Below, piece by piece: positions 27,071 to 29,837 of a stretch of DNA of 54,786 bases. The stretch's first letter is position 1. Each line of letters starts with the position of its first letter. The translations under genes were made by a program, and so were the position numbers. The notes under the pieces are model-generated. The model was not told the DNA's origin, searched no databases, and was given only the letters and a program-made list of their open reading frames with translations. Source of the stretch: Parvularcula maris (GTDB lineage: Bacteria; Pseudomonadota; Alphaproteobacteria; Caulobacterales; Parvularculaceae); the NCBI RefSeq assembly GCF_024505085.1, contig NZ_JANIBC010000015.1:1-54786 (forward strand), written 5' to 3'.

Positions 27071-27078
27071 CGCTGCCT
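27071..27078. repeat. Target-site duplication, left
   Basis: CGCTGCCT directly before the transposon end; an identical copy follows the right end at 29830-29837. Confidence 0.9.
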
Positions 27079-27097
27079 GGTAGTGGGTCAGTTTGAA
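27079..27097 (+). repeat. Left terminal inverted repeat
   Basis: GGTAGTGGGTCAGTTTGAA; the exact reverse complement stands at 29811-29829. The transposase stop codon (27088-27090) lies inside it. Confidence 0.93.
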
Positions 27098-27978
27098 TTT
27101 TCTTTCTTGCGGTAGGCCTTCGGGCGGTTCGGCTTGGGTGCCCGCTCATCGACCAGCTTGATGATGTCTTCCACGTCCCAGATGCGATCCGTGAGGCCAG
27201 CCGCCATCGCTGGCGTCCACTTGTTGAGCGACTTGTGCTGACGGCAGAAGTTGTAGTTCATGAAGTGCAGCGCGCCCGCCAGAGCGTGGTTCTCCACTTT
27301 CTTTGAGAAGGCGTTCGTTAAGCGCGTGAAGCGGCGCATGTTCATCCGCATGGTGAGGTTCTGACGCTCTACGAACGACGTGGAGACCTTCGCCATATCC
27401 GGCTCGCCTTCGATGACATCCTTGCGTGTCTTGCAGCACTCGCCGGGGCTGTAGCGGCGCTCCTGCGGCTTGCCCTTGGGCTCTTGGAACAGCTTCACGA
27501 GCTGGGCGTAGTCCACGTCTGCGCCGAACGCTTCTTCGATGGCTTCAAGGTACGGCTTATGACCATCGGTCGTGATCTGAACCCGCGAGGCGAGACGCGC
27601 CGCCAGATCGGAGATGAAGAGGCGAGCGTAGGAGCTGTCGCGACCGCCGATCAGGTATGAAATGCAAAGCTTGCTGTCGGCGTCGATTGCCGTCCACGTC
27701 CACACGTCGCCAGCGTCTTCGGGAGCGGCCTTCGCATCGGCGACGTTCTTCGCTTTGGCGTAGCAAAAGGACCAGATTTCATCGCACTGGACGCGCTCGG
27801 CTTCGACCTCGCGCACCATTTCGTTATGAAAGGCAGCGCAGGCTTCACCCGCTTCCACTAGCAGCTTCGAAACCGTGTTTTTGGAAACTTCGGCGATCCG
27901 CGCCGTGCCCCGGATCGACATGCCATCGAGAAGACACTTCAAGATGGTCTTGCGGGTATGAAGGGGCAGCTTGTTCAT
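27088..27978 (-). CDS. IS1-family DDE transposase
   Basis: A 296-aa single-frame transposase. An N-terminal helix-turn-helix (about residues 13-45, GMSIRGTARIAEVSKNTVSKLL) is followed by the catalytic triad D66 (QCDEIWSF), D138 (TTDGHKPY) and E204 (SFVERQNLTMRM). A conserved NHALAGALHFMNYNFCRQHKSL tail follows. Unlike classical IS1 it needs no frameshift, as in the single-frame subgroup seen in many alphaproteobacteria. All catalytic residues are present and the gene is unbroken. The start at 27978 is preceded by a weak AAGGGG. Confidence 0.93.
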   Translation of the reverse strand: MNKLPLHTRKTILKCLLDGMSIRGTARIAEVSKNTVSKLLVEAGEACAAFHNEMVREVEAERVQCDEIWSFCYAKAKNVADAKAAPEDAGDVWTWTAIDADSKLCISYLIGGRDSSYARLFISDLAARLASRVQITTDGHKPYLEAIEEAFGADVDYAQLVKLFQEPKGKPQERRYSPGECCKTRKDVIEGEPDMAKVSTSFVERQNLTMRMNMRRFTRLTNAFSKKVENHALAGALHFMNYNFCRQHKSLNKWTPAMAAGLTDRIWDVEDIIKLVDERAPKPNRPKAYRKKENSN

Positions 27979-27998
27979 GCCCCTTCATATTGACCTTT

Positions 27999-28017
27999 AT
28001 GCTTGAGCGTCAAGCAT
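27999..28017. promoter_or_regulatory. Palindrome upstream of the transposase gene
   Basis: ATGCTTGA-GCG-TCAAGCAT, with 8-bp arms, lies 21 bp before the transposase start and abuts the end of the last cargo gene. On the minus strand it overlaps a possible -35 (TTGACG), with TATGAA 18 bases further on. It could be an operator limiting transposase expression. Confidence 0.4.
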
Positions 28018-28190
28018 CAATGGTCAGTTTGCTGCTTCTTCCTCTGCCGATACTCTGCAAAGAGTTTACTGATCTGATTATCGAATTTGCCCATAACCTC
28101 AGCTAGTTGCGGGCTGGGTGGTGCAGGCTCGTGGCGGTTGGCGTTGCTTTGACGAAACCCGCGTCCTTGTCGATCAAACGCTCGCTGCAT
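28017..28190 (-). CDS. Cargo gene 3: small basic protein
   Basis: A 57-aa hydrophilic protein beginning MQRAFDRQGRGFRQS, with a basic amphipathic C-terminus (VMGKFDNQISKLFAEYRQRKKQQ). The family is unknown. AGGAGG lies 6 bases before the ATG at 28190, which favours it over an ATG two codons upstream that touches the ribosome site. It overlaps the end of the Ntn-hydrolase-like gene by 17 bases, so it is translated from the same message. A partner or regulator of that protein is possible but unproven. Confidence 0.6.
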   Translation of the reverse strand: MQRAFDRQGRGFRQSNANRHEPAPPSPQLAEVMGKFDNQISKLFAEYRQRKKQQTDH

Positions 28191-29526
28191 CGTCATCCTC
28201 CTGAGGCGCATCCCGAGATATAGCTATTCGCTCGAAATATCTAGCGTTCAAATCAGGTGGAAAGTAATGTTTTCTCTTAACCCAAACGAAACCTTCAGTT
28301 TTCGAGATAACAGCAACGTCAATAGGCCCGCCGACTGTCTCAAACCCCCGCGAGACTTTCCGCTTCGTAGAGGTCAGATCTACTAGTGCTTCTGCTGTCT
28401 TTGCCATCTCAGGCTTCGGCATGAACTCAATCATGGATATTATATCACTTCGAGCATCGGTCTGGATGGCCTCAAAAGCCTCTTTGTCAATTTGCTCTTT
28501 GAACTGACTGATTGCTTCTTCAACGGTCGTCTTGAGGTCGTCATATGCCCCATCGGATGGGAGGGACTCAATGACTTCCGAGAGGACTTTGTTCACAGCG
28601 TTCGAGCAATATTGAGACAGTTGGTCGCGCACCTCCTGGTCGAGACCATCCACGAAACGGTCCACAACATCTCGCTGCGCGAACGGAACAATGTCTGCCC
28701 TCGGCTTGGAGCGGTCAATATCGCAGGTGTAATCACACTCGTATTTGAGTCGGTCACCGATCATCCCGCCGATCTTGAAACTAAGCAGAGATGGAAAGCG
28801 TTCCTTCTTGCCAAAACCAAAAACAACAAGTCCGGTATATCCGCCAGCGAAACTTCTCAGTAGAACAAGCTCGAGTACGCGAACGGCTTTTCTCTTTACC
28901 TCATCAGGAAGGGGCAACATTGCAAAGTCATTGACAAAACTCTCAAGGTTTTCGATATCGGCAGCCGAAAGCTGAGGTTGGCTCTCCGACCCGAAGAACC
29001 GAAGCTCGGGATCGGACTCCAATATTGAAATACGTTCGTCTAGCTCTTTGCTGTATAATTCCTCGTAGCGTGCCTGGGACCGTTCCCTAAAGTCTTTGAT
29101 TGACTGGTCAGGCTCCCCGTTCTTACTGGCCTCAACCGCTTCGCGGGTCATTGTATACGATACCTTGTGCTGGATGCTGTCCCACATCTCGCCCAAAGTG
29201 GCTTCAATTTCCTCGTTGATTAGCTCCGACGCTGCCCCCTTCCCCTCGTTGTTCAGAAATTCGAGAAAGGCGAACGCAGCATTCTCAACCTTGTCGAAAG
29301 CACCTGCTTGATCACGGAACTCGCGAACCAGGGATTGGAGAGGAATGCCGAGAAAGTGCATCCCGCTATAAACCATGATGCCGATCGGCTGGGCCGTAGT
29401 CAGCTCGAAAATTTTGTCGGCGCTATCGTATGTCTTGGAAAAATTTGCGCCATGAGTGATTGTCACTGCGCTGTCGGCCGCCACGGCAACGGCAGTTTTG
29501 TTCAAAATCGCAACTTCAGCTGTCAC
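28174..29526 (-). CDS. Cargo gene 2: proteasome-like Ntn hydrolase (predicted)
   Basis: About 450 aa. AGGAG lies 8 bases before a GTG at 29526; removal of Met would leave Thr1 of TAEVAILNKTAVAVAADSAV. Counting from that Thr, Asp17 falls in AADSA exactly as in proteasome beta subunits and HslV. KIFEL places Lys37 where those proteins have Lys33. GIMVYSG (48-54) resembles the glycine turn lining the active site. Later GGYTGLVVFGFG and GGPIDVAVISK read as core strands. Extra, mostly helical parts (roughly 75-225 and 280-400) make it over twice the usual size. Similar long proteins occur in other bacteria without known function. Protease activity is inferred, not shown. Confidence 0.72.
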   Translation of the reverse strand: MTAEVAILNKTAVAVAADSAVTITHGANFSKTYDSADKIFELTTAQPIGIMVYSGMHFLGIPLQSLVREFRDQAGAFDKVENAAFAFLEFLNNEGKGAASELINEEIEATLGEMWDSIQHKVSYTMTREAVEASKNGEPDQSIKDFRERSQARYEELYSKELDERISILESDPELRFFGSESQPQLSAADIENLESFVNDFAMLPLPDEVKRKAVRVLELVLLRSFAGGYTGLVVFGFGKKERFPSLLSFKIGGMIGDRLKYECDYTCDIDRSKPRADIVPFAQRDVVDRFVDGLDQEVRDQLSQYCSNAVNKVLSEVIESLPSDGAYDDLKTTVEEAISQFKEQIDKEAFEAIQTDARSDIISMIEFMPKPEMAKTAEALVDLTSTKRKVSRGFETVGGPIDVAVISKTEGFVWVKRKHYFPPDLNARYFERIAISRDAPQEDDDAASV

Positions 29527-29752
29527 ACTTCCAGCGCTCCTTTGCGGCAATCCGAGCAATCTCTGCGCGCCGCTCAGGAGACAGTTTGCGGGCTCGGGAG
29601 ACCCCGCCCTTCAATCCACCCTCGCGACCGAGCTTCACTTGCTCAGTCTCATTTGATTCGCAATCTTCAGACTCAGCCCCGGTAGCTAAGTCAACAATCC
29701 GCTTAGCCAGCTGGTTCGCATCGCGAGGGCGCTTGGGGTTCTTTCCGGTCAT
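29516..29752 (-). CDS. Cargo gene 1: histone-H1-like small protein
   Basis: A 78-aa hydrophilic protein, MTGKNPKRPRDANQLAKRIVDLATG, then an acidic linker, then LGREGGLKGGVSRARKLSPERRAEIARIAAKERW. This layout matches short proteins of alphaproteobacteria often labelled histone H1-like; they may bind nucleic acid. The ATG at 29752 is taken because the longer reading starts with TTG inside the terminal repeat. It is the first cargo gene, 58 bp inside the right end, and its 3' end contains the ribosome site and start of the Ntn-like gene (11-base overlap). Confidence 0.7.
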   Translation of the reverse strand: MTGKNPKRPRDANQLAKRIVDLATGAESEDCESNETEQVKLGREGGLKGGVSRARKLSPERRAEIARIAAKERWKCDS

Positions 29753-29810
29753 GCCCCAAGATATGGCACCTTGCGGGCCCGGGGACAAACCCCCGTCAAT
29801 CCCGCCGATT

Positions 29811-29829
29811 TTCAAACTGACCCACTACC
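29811..29829 (-). repeat. Right terminal inverted repeat
   Basis: TTCAAACTGACCCACTACC, the exact reverse complement of the left end at 27079-27097. Confidence 0.93.
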
Positions 29830-29837
29830 CGCTGCCT
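29830..29837. repeat. Target-site duplication, right
   Basis: CGCTGCCT, identical to 27071-27078, directly after the right terminal repeat. Confidence 0.9.

Follow-up and report, generated by a model that had tools for sequence, protein, structure and literature searches.

The transposon and its Ntn hydrolase gene

The 54,786-nucleotide stretch of Parvularcula maris DNA analysed here (NCBI RefSeq assembly GCF_024505085.1, contig NZ_JANIBC010000015.1, positions 1 to 54,786; hereafter the window) includes a complete IS1-like transposon of 2751 bp (27079–29829), which carries as cargo a gene for a proteasome-like N-terminal nucleophile (Ntn) hydrolase. The element is bounded by perfect 19-bp terminal inverted repeats, GGTAGTGGGTCAGTTTGAA at 27079–27097 on the forward strand and its counterpart at 29811–29829 on the reverse strand, the pair being 100% complementary over 19 nt. 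Identical 8-bp flanks, the left (27071–27078) and right (29830–29837) copies of CGCTGCCT, represent the target-site duplication; in the IS1 family such duplications are 8–9 bp long. These boundaries confirmed the suggestion of an earlier note on this DNA, made from the sequence alone, that the Ntn gene is transposon-borne. The G+C content of the element is 54%, as compared with 67% in the flanks.

The element includes three genes that share one direction, all on the reverse strand: a 99-aa open reading frame (ORF) at the transposon end (29516–29815), which is also present in sister transposons with various cargo, the Ntn gene (28174–29526), and an uninterrupted gene for an IS1-family-like transposase of 296 aa (27088–27978). 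The transposase scored 29.6 bits against Pfam DDE_Tnp_IS1 (PF03400; cut-off 24.1) and 67.5 bits against the NCBIfam IS1 equivalog, which is under the cut-off of 100; hence, it belongs to a divergent IS1 branch. It is present in one copy in the host genome. No empty insertion site was seen in nine other genomes of the genus. The pterin-dehydratase gene to the left of the element was found in 10/10 genomes of the genus, host included, and in the nine others neither the farther left flank nor the right-side gene was seen adjoining it. A 22-nt stretch located 3' of the Ntn gene (28022–28043) is 77% like the transposon end (27086–27107) in the same direction, and is perhaps a relic of an older transposon end or a chance resemblance.

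The Ntn frame encodes exactly 450 aa followed by a stop codon, in agreement with the length of about 450 aa given earlier, and its G+C content at the three codon positions is 0.58, 0.38 and 0.55. It begins with a GTG codon (29524–29526, reverse strand) followed by a Thr codon, and overlaps the upstream 99-aa ORF by 11 bases (29516–29526). Because a TTG located 33 bases upstream of the GTG is also in open frame, the choice of start needed testing. At the aligned first position, a possible start codon was found in all 200 fetched Ntn loci (172 ATG, 18 GTG, 9 TTG and 1 ATT), a set that includes the window gene twice (L001 and L004) and near-identical phage copies, and Thr followed directly in 200/200, which upholds the proposed GTG start with Thr as the next residue. 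A further-upstream in-frame ATG occurs in 17 of 197 Ntn members, and a Shine-Dalgarno-like 4-mer precedes the start in 104 of the 197. In the window, the Shine-Dalgarno-like sequence AAAGGAG (29537–29543) is present where a ribosome-binding site had been proposed, but the spacing to the GTG is 10 bases and not the claimed 8. Scans for promoters and terminators gave nothing above chance level.

Active site, predicted fold and family of the Ntn protein

The window protein is almost certainly a proteasome-family Thr hydrolase. As homology to the proteasome by sequence only is weak, the case for this identity rests on the fold together with the catalytic triad.

Counted from Thr1, the protein has Asp at exactly position 17 and Lys at position 37 within KIFEL, as read in the earlier note. 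In a member-by-member check, Thr1, Asp17 and Lys37 were all retained in 198/198 relatives, comprising 30 from hidden Markov model (HMM) and protein searches of host-family genomes, 8 from phages and plasmids, 80 from genome contigs and 80 from viral contigs; one of the 198 (L073) is cut short to 85 aa. The genome-contig and viral-contig groups were collected partly by patterns containing Asp17 or Lys37, and the other 38 members are therefore the unbiased part; no pattern held Thr1. The positions invariant in a 115-sequence alignment are Thr1, Asp17, Ser18 and Lys37 (T2, D18, S19 and K38 if Met is counted). A further lysine, Lys30, is kept in 195 of the 198 members. HslV likewise has two lysines in its N-terminal region, at positions 28 and 33. 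In the search for an equivalent of the oxyanion-hole Gly47, a Gly was found after strand 48–54 in the window protein (VYSG), but its alignment column is not invariant. The protein is very probably catalytically active.

The AlphaFold2 model obtained from a 115-row alignment (predicted local distance difference test score 92.7, predicted TM-score 0.89) indicates a four-layer Ntn sandwich. In the N-terminal half, strands within residues 4–54 are followed by helices 63–73 and 80–96 and by a helical insert at about 100–224; in the C-terminal half, strands 231–283 are followed by helices 285–321, an inserted helix at about 328–367, helix 371–391, strands 402–417, and a C-terminal helix. The first insert consists of helices 100–135, 143–171, 188–201 and 208–224 and is placed by the model between H2 (80–96) and the strand at 231, and the second between helices 297–321 and 371–391, i.e. 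between H3 and H4. The large helical inserts foreseen from the sequence were thus seen in the model. Comparison of the model with the PDB by Foldseek, a check that the earlier note had called for, matched proteasome subunits first: among 273 matches at E up to 10, all 50 best listed are proteasome subunits, led by 8f66_H of the Thermoplasma 20S proteasome (E 2.7e-4, probability 1.00, TM-score by target 0.54), and just two have E ≤0.001. The root-mean-square deviation across the entire aligned span to proteasome entries is 12–24 Å, which is attributed to the helical inserts. Among viral models in BFVD, the top hit was a phage protein carrying the annotation 'Proteasome beta type-2 subunit' (E 2.4e-4; TM-score by target 0.64). 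Both outcomes that the earlier note had set as refuting, a model without the Ntn sandwich and homologues in which Thr1, Asp17 and Lys37 vary, are thus contradicted.

The sequence comparisons were far less telling. The Pfam and NCBIfam scan of the window protein gave no family beyond chance level, and the PF00227 HMM search that had been suggested as a check gave no match for it. Two results weigh against the assignment to the proteasome family. PF00227 was reached in 13 of 74 N-terminal segments, with a best E of 0.0098 that falls short of the cut-off, and is the commonest Pfam match among these segments, the next family having 3. Full-length profile alignment to HslV, represented by 29 HslV-like sequences that were pattern-picked from 30 loci, gave a probability of 1.0% and a score of 20.4 versus 20.8 for the best of 20 column shuffles, and the top region was a helical stretch. 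The N-terminal profile gave a weak alignment to HslV (score 20.7 versus 19.6 for the best of 50 shuffles; E 0.0096, probability 4.3%) in a register that matches Thr1 with Thr1 and Asp17 with Asp17 and pairs the lysine of KIFEL with that of KVRRL. In a sequence-profile search of the PDB, helices of cullin-3 came first and a proteasome beta subunit had E 0.029 across 17 positions; with the N-terminal profile, a proteasome chain was third of five (E 3.1). A single-sequence search returned chance-level matches alone, the top one being cathepsin L (E 0.075).

The protein family itself is already known. PHROG 5990, a phage protein family annotated 'unknown function', covers the window protein at full length (residues 1–433 versus profile positions 1–426 of 427, E 9.9e-91); unlike the findings presented here, its entry says nothing of a fold, an activity or a link to transposons. 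Fuchs, Alva and Lupas (2021; PMC8665760) described 22 new proteasome-like subfamilies, which were also sought below the significance line. In two of these, PMI-3 and PMI-4 (for 'Proteasome homolog with Multiple Insertions'), H1/H2 are followed by a long insertion, and a further insertion separates H3 from H4 (PMC8665760). PMI-4 is the widespread one, with 501 sequences at 90% identity from many bacterial phyla, Euryarchaeota and phages, and with conserved active-site residues; phages are listed in Table 1 for PMI-4 and not for PMI-3 (PMC8665760). The modelled inserts of the window protein, the first of them at the pore-loop site after H1/H2, agree with the third and the fourth of the insertion sites in that study, both of which are shared with PMI-4, and its relatives are likewise spread over phyla, archaea and phages. 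Hence, as judged by insert sites and spread, the window protein most likely belongs to PMI-4. The retrieved passages of PMC8665760 mention no transposon carriage for PMI-4, whereas the window gene is transposon-borne. Of the earlier proposal that the gene is a new kind of transposon passenger, the carriage thus stands, but the protein family is not new. The AAH subfamily, considered for its name and phage link, was rejected, since AAH is described as compact and without insertions (PMC8665760) and the window protein has two.

The window protein differs from HslV in several respects. HslV has Thr1, Asp17 and Lys33, is about 172 aa long, has PF00227, and works with the partner HslU, whereas the window protein has Thr1, Asp17 and Lys37, is 450 aa long with large inserts, and lacks a PF00227 match; no HslU-like gene is included in the gene content of the transposon. 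The single PF00227 protein of the host, encoded at G000:C1:358141-358662, is presumably HslV.

A transposon lineage with exchangeable cargo

Relatives of the transposase were found in 48 of 385 genomes of the class, host included. Twenty transposase neighbourhoods were fetched, and every locus then collected was scanned for the terminal repeat, which revealed 23 distinct complete elements of 2.7–4.0 kb. An exact 8-bp duplication flanks 22 of them, the element in L246 being the one without, and a relative of the 99-aa protein (tblastn, E 1e-4) is encoded in 21, window included, two of these being inverted. The variable cargo sits between the 99-aa ORF and the transposase gene, and a second cargo region follows the transposase gene in several elements. 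The cargo of six complete elements includes the Ntn gene, namely those of the window, L041 (Nitrobacter), L050 (Methylobacterium), L062 (Litoreibacter), L084 (Hyphomicrobium) and L247; four of the six were found via the Ntn gene, and one (L247) of the 18 elements found via the transposase holds it. In L084 (4531–10128), two identical 2795-bp copies of the Ntn transposon lie in tandem with TGTGGTTC between and outside them, as expected for repeated insertion or unequal exchange.

In a 130-row tree of Ntn proteins, the six transposon-borne rows need six state changes, and well-supported branches force at least five. As 500/500 shuffles of the labels need no more changes than observed, the transposon-borne label is not clustered. 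The exact number of gains and losses is soft, since this was a quick tree in which 40 of 127 inner branches are open. The transposon-borne state was gained or lost at least five times, and the Ntn gene was thus captured repeatedly. Broken copies, such as the 85-aa frame in L073 and two overlapping frames in G101 (G101:C2:386508-387759), are as expected for a gene under gain and loss.

The company that the Ntn gene keeps was examined with PADLOC, using 27 non-Ntn cargo proteins from 18 elements. These are a part of the cargo ORFs; the 18 elements include L233 and L245, each covered at one end only, and no tested protein came from L232, L235, L236, L062 or L084. A match below 1e-20 was found for 8 of the 27 proteins, spread over eight elements: PD-Lambda-2_B in L231, L244 and L246, RmrA in L237 and L238, PDC-S13 in L241, PDC-M06B in L248, and PDC-S15, an FRG-domain protein, in L050, where it lies alongside the Ntn gene. 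None of 19 host genes matched at this level (one-sided p 0.0085), the control comprising 9 window genes (best 1.6e-7) and the largest ORFs of ten hand-picked 6-kb stretches (best 6e-9). Pfam further identified a SocA/Panacea antitoxin (L225), an acetyltransferase (L247), and nSTAND/AAA, P63C, Bro-N and DUF6941 proteins among the other cargo. Set against a defence-like cargo are the following. Five of the eight PADLOC matches (PD-Lambda-2_B and RmrA) are to proteins that combine a helix-turn-helix (HTH) domain and an M78-peptidase domain, a broad regulator type, this architecture having been seen by Pfam in the three of the five that were run; the PDC models are candidates only; and cargo that is not defence-like also occurs, including DUF6941, P63C, several matchless proteins, a coiled-coil protein in L235, and a cargo without assignment in L236. 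As judged by these matches, the cargo is enriched for conflict genes and not limited to them.

Two further cargo types were observed. The element in L246 (2747–4668) encodes a HigB-like toxin, the HTH/M78 protein with the PD-Lambda-2_B match, and a third small gene product, of which PADLOC matched only the middle one; as PD-Lambda-2 has three genes, this element may hold a complete PD-Lambda-2 system. A recurrent cargo family in L245, L248, L250, L221 and L225 was recognised by eye from a motif like SPxFPxIPLxxAIxR near the start, and gave no PADLOC match (L245 and L248) and no Pfam match (L248 and L250).

Insertion sequences with passenger genes have been termed tIS (PMC7986276), and the window element shares with them a transposase and an unrelated passenger between terminal repeats, together with an 8-bp duplication. 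As far as tIS are described in the retrieved text, the present lineage differs by the conserved 99-aa gene at one end and by its exchangeable, often defence-like cargo. The hotspots of antiviral genes in P2/P4-type phages and satellites (PMC9122126) likewise combine one mobile platform with many exchangeable conflict genes, whereas the platform here is an IS1-like transposon of 2.7–4.0 kb. No description of such a transposon lineage, or of carriage of the Ntn family by one, was found among the papers listed by searches of open-licence PubMed Central. What is new is that the transposon lineage carries exchangeable cargo, the proteasome homologue included. The lineage is recognisable by its terminal repeat, transposase and 99-aa gene, and can be used to find further uncharacterised cargo.

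Distribution and proposed function

Relatives of the window protein are encoded in 13 of 50,697 phage records, 9 of the 13 being Streptococcus phages or satellites, and in 9 of 72,556 plasmids. In IMG/VR, 148 relatives were found among 205 pattern matches, and in genome contigs at least 332 among at least 587 pattern matches, from many bacterial phyla and archaea; the sets used here are the best 80 of 148 and the best 80 of at least 332, respectively. In E. coli, 9 of 5,426 genomes gave matches in a distant DNA search using an Enterobacter relative as query (28% query coverage). Among 114 loci, the genes that recur most often nearby belong to prophages (up to 9 loci), followed by the 99-aa ORF (5) and the transposase gene (4), and no other notable conserved neighbour, nor any prominent unfoldase, was seen in the 25 neighbour clusters listed, which were read by eye. 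The retrieved text of PMC8665760 gives for the new subfamilies no genomic context hinting at a specific function and no co-occurring AAA+ partner.

Taken as a whole, the data are best explained by a stand-alone proteasome-family Thr hydrolase that serves as a transposon-borne conflict gene, an explanation that is favoured by a little over even chances. Removal of Met would expose Thr1 as the nucleophile, acting with Asp17 and Lys37. The helical inserts are predicted to occupy the sites of ring and double-ring contacts in the proteasome and HslV, so that the enzyme would most likely be monomeric or form small oligomers; according to PMC8665760, the formation of double-ring layers could be blocked by insertions between H3 and H4. 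A helical lid may select few substrates, and a dedicated AAA+ unfoldase would not be needed. The enzyme would then cleave (or ligate) a protein during attack by a phage or mobile element, its carrier being the IS1-like lineage with exchangeable cargo that is often anti-phage-like or toxin-antitoxin-like.

The cargo of the sister transposons suggests, as circumstantial support, that the conflict is with phages, and the odds of an anti-phage defence role are about balanced. More tentative is the full proposal of a one-gene anti-phage immune effector of the proteasome family, a Thr protease or ligase for which transposons, prophages, satellites and plasmids act as vehicles, with the IS1-like lineage exchanging defence genes. 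It counts against defence that PADLOC lacks a model for the Ntn protein, for which a partial match to 'Unk_02' was the only one obtained (E 0.0023); the host's second Ntn copy gave no PADLOC match. A broad family of proteasome relatives without known function gains a concrete functional hypothesis from its repeated capture by one transposon lineage and from the defence-like genes in sister elements. The proteasome fold would, if a defence role is correct, join the folds common to bacterial immunity and eukaryotic cell biology.

The distribution within the host's own family weighs against a conflict gene and would suit a peptidase of general protein quality control or of stress, comparable to BPH or an uncapped 20S proteasome, that is merely spread by mobile elements; this alternative is considered rather unlikely. 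A PHROG 5990 member is present in 59 of 62 genomes of the family, as suits a housekeeping gene. The host genome has a second Ntn copy on another contig (L002 1501–2790, G000:C3) that is 31% identical to the window protein, and 28 of the 29 family copies compared, the second copy itself counted, are 60–100% identical to it over approximately the whole length, the copy in G051 being just 27% identical. The family therefore has a settled Ntn copy, which is either a domesticated mobile conflict gene or the bearer of an ancestral housekeeping role that mobile elements have borrowed. Elsewhere in the class, two genomes (L286 and L290) have the Ntn gene flanked by queA and tgt, the names being confirmed by Pfam for L286, and unfoldase-free clearance is proposed in the discussion of PMC8665760. 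However, a PHROG 5990 member occurs in only 17 of 385 genomes across the class, the gene is carried by phages, satellites, plasmids and transposons, and the predicted inserts occupy ring interfaces on which a degradative chamber would depend.

By analogy with connectase, the protein might be a specific protein ligase or amidase and not a protease, which is held to be improbable. Connectase is a monomeric protein ligase of the same superfamily with a helical insertion over its active site (PMC8665760); the window protein likewise has large helical insertions in the model, and the element includes no obvious partner gene apart from the 99-aa ORF. However, the insertion of connectase sits elsewhere, and the model of the window protein has no helical insert between S3 and S4.

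A role in element maintenance, in which the enzyme would process the transposase or the 99-aa protein, or pair with the latter in a toxin-antitoxin-like manner and so stabilise the transposon, is very improbable. The overlap of the 99-aa ORF and the Ntn gene is consistent with such a role, but the 99-aa ORF accompanies many other cargoes in the lineage, and its relatives (tblastn) were found in only 6 of 80 genome-contig Ntn loci and 0 of 80 viral loci. A catalytically dead, scaffold-like relative comparable to the proteasome alpha subunits is barely credible: PMC8665760 reports, in its retrieved passages, no activity or function for the new subfamilies, but Thr1 directly after the initiator, Asp17 and Lys37 occur in the 198 members without exception.

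Other neighbourhoods were noted. In L288, queA and tgt are both beside the Ntn gene, in overlapping frames. Behind the host's second copy lies a 146-aa ORF that has no Pfam match (L002 2810–3250), a possible partner; small ORFs of similar appearance lie 3' of the Ntn copy in L293–L296, and their pairwise similarity is only partial.

In some lineages, gene neighbourhoods hint that the Ntn enzyme might supply the proteolysis in a minimal bacterial immune locus of a ubiquitin-proteasome-like kind. A ubiquitin-like neighbourhood as the general partner was rejected: among the 385 class genomes, multiubiquitin was found in 11 (10 over the cut-off) and the Ntn gene in 17, both being present in one (G065), on different contigs, versus 0.5 expected, and multiubiquitin was found in just 3 of 160 Ntn loci (the best 80 genome contigs and the best 80 viral contigs). 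In L338, L339, L340, L341, L064, L080 and L107, multiubiquitin genes and genes of the ThiF family (E1-type) were observed at a distance of a few kb at most from the Ntn relative. These loci comprise four Rhizobium and Mesorhizobium plasmids, three with ClpP too (7 of 9 plasmid neighbourhoods were inspected), two rhizobial contigs, and an actinobacterial contig with a Pfam ThiF match and a sub-threshold multiubiquitin match.

Among phages and satellites, Streptococcus satellite Javan198 and Streptococcus phage Javan85 have the Ntn relative as their last gene. In a Providencia phage it is co-oriented with a DNA adenine methylase gene on one side and lysis genes on the other, whereas in Stenotrophomonas phage BUCT708 it is opposed in direction to the neighbouring genes. 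Such phage positions often house extra genes expressed from the prophage state. A relative oriented against its neighbours was also observed in a prophage remnant of E. coli strain H3 (L337, NZ_CP010167.1 2817399–2832670), between the antiterminator Q gene and DNA-methyltransferase/lysis genes.

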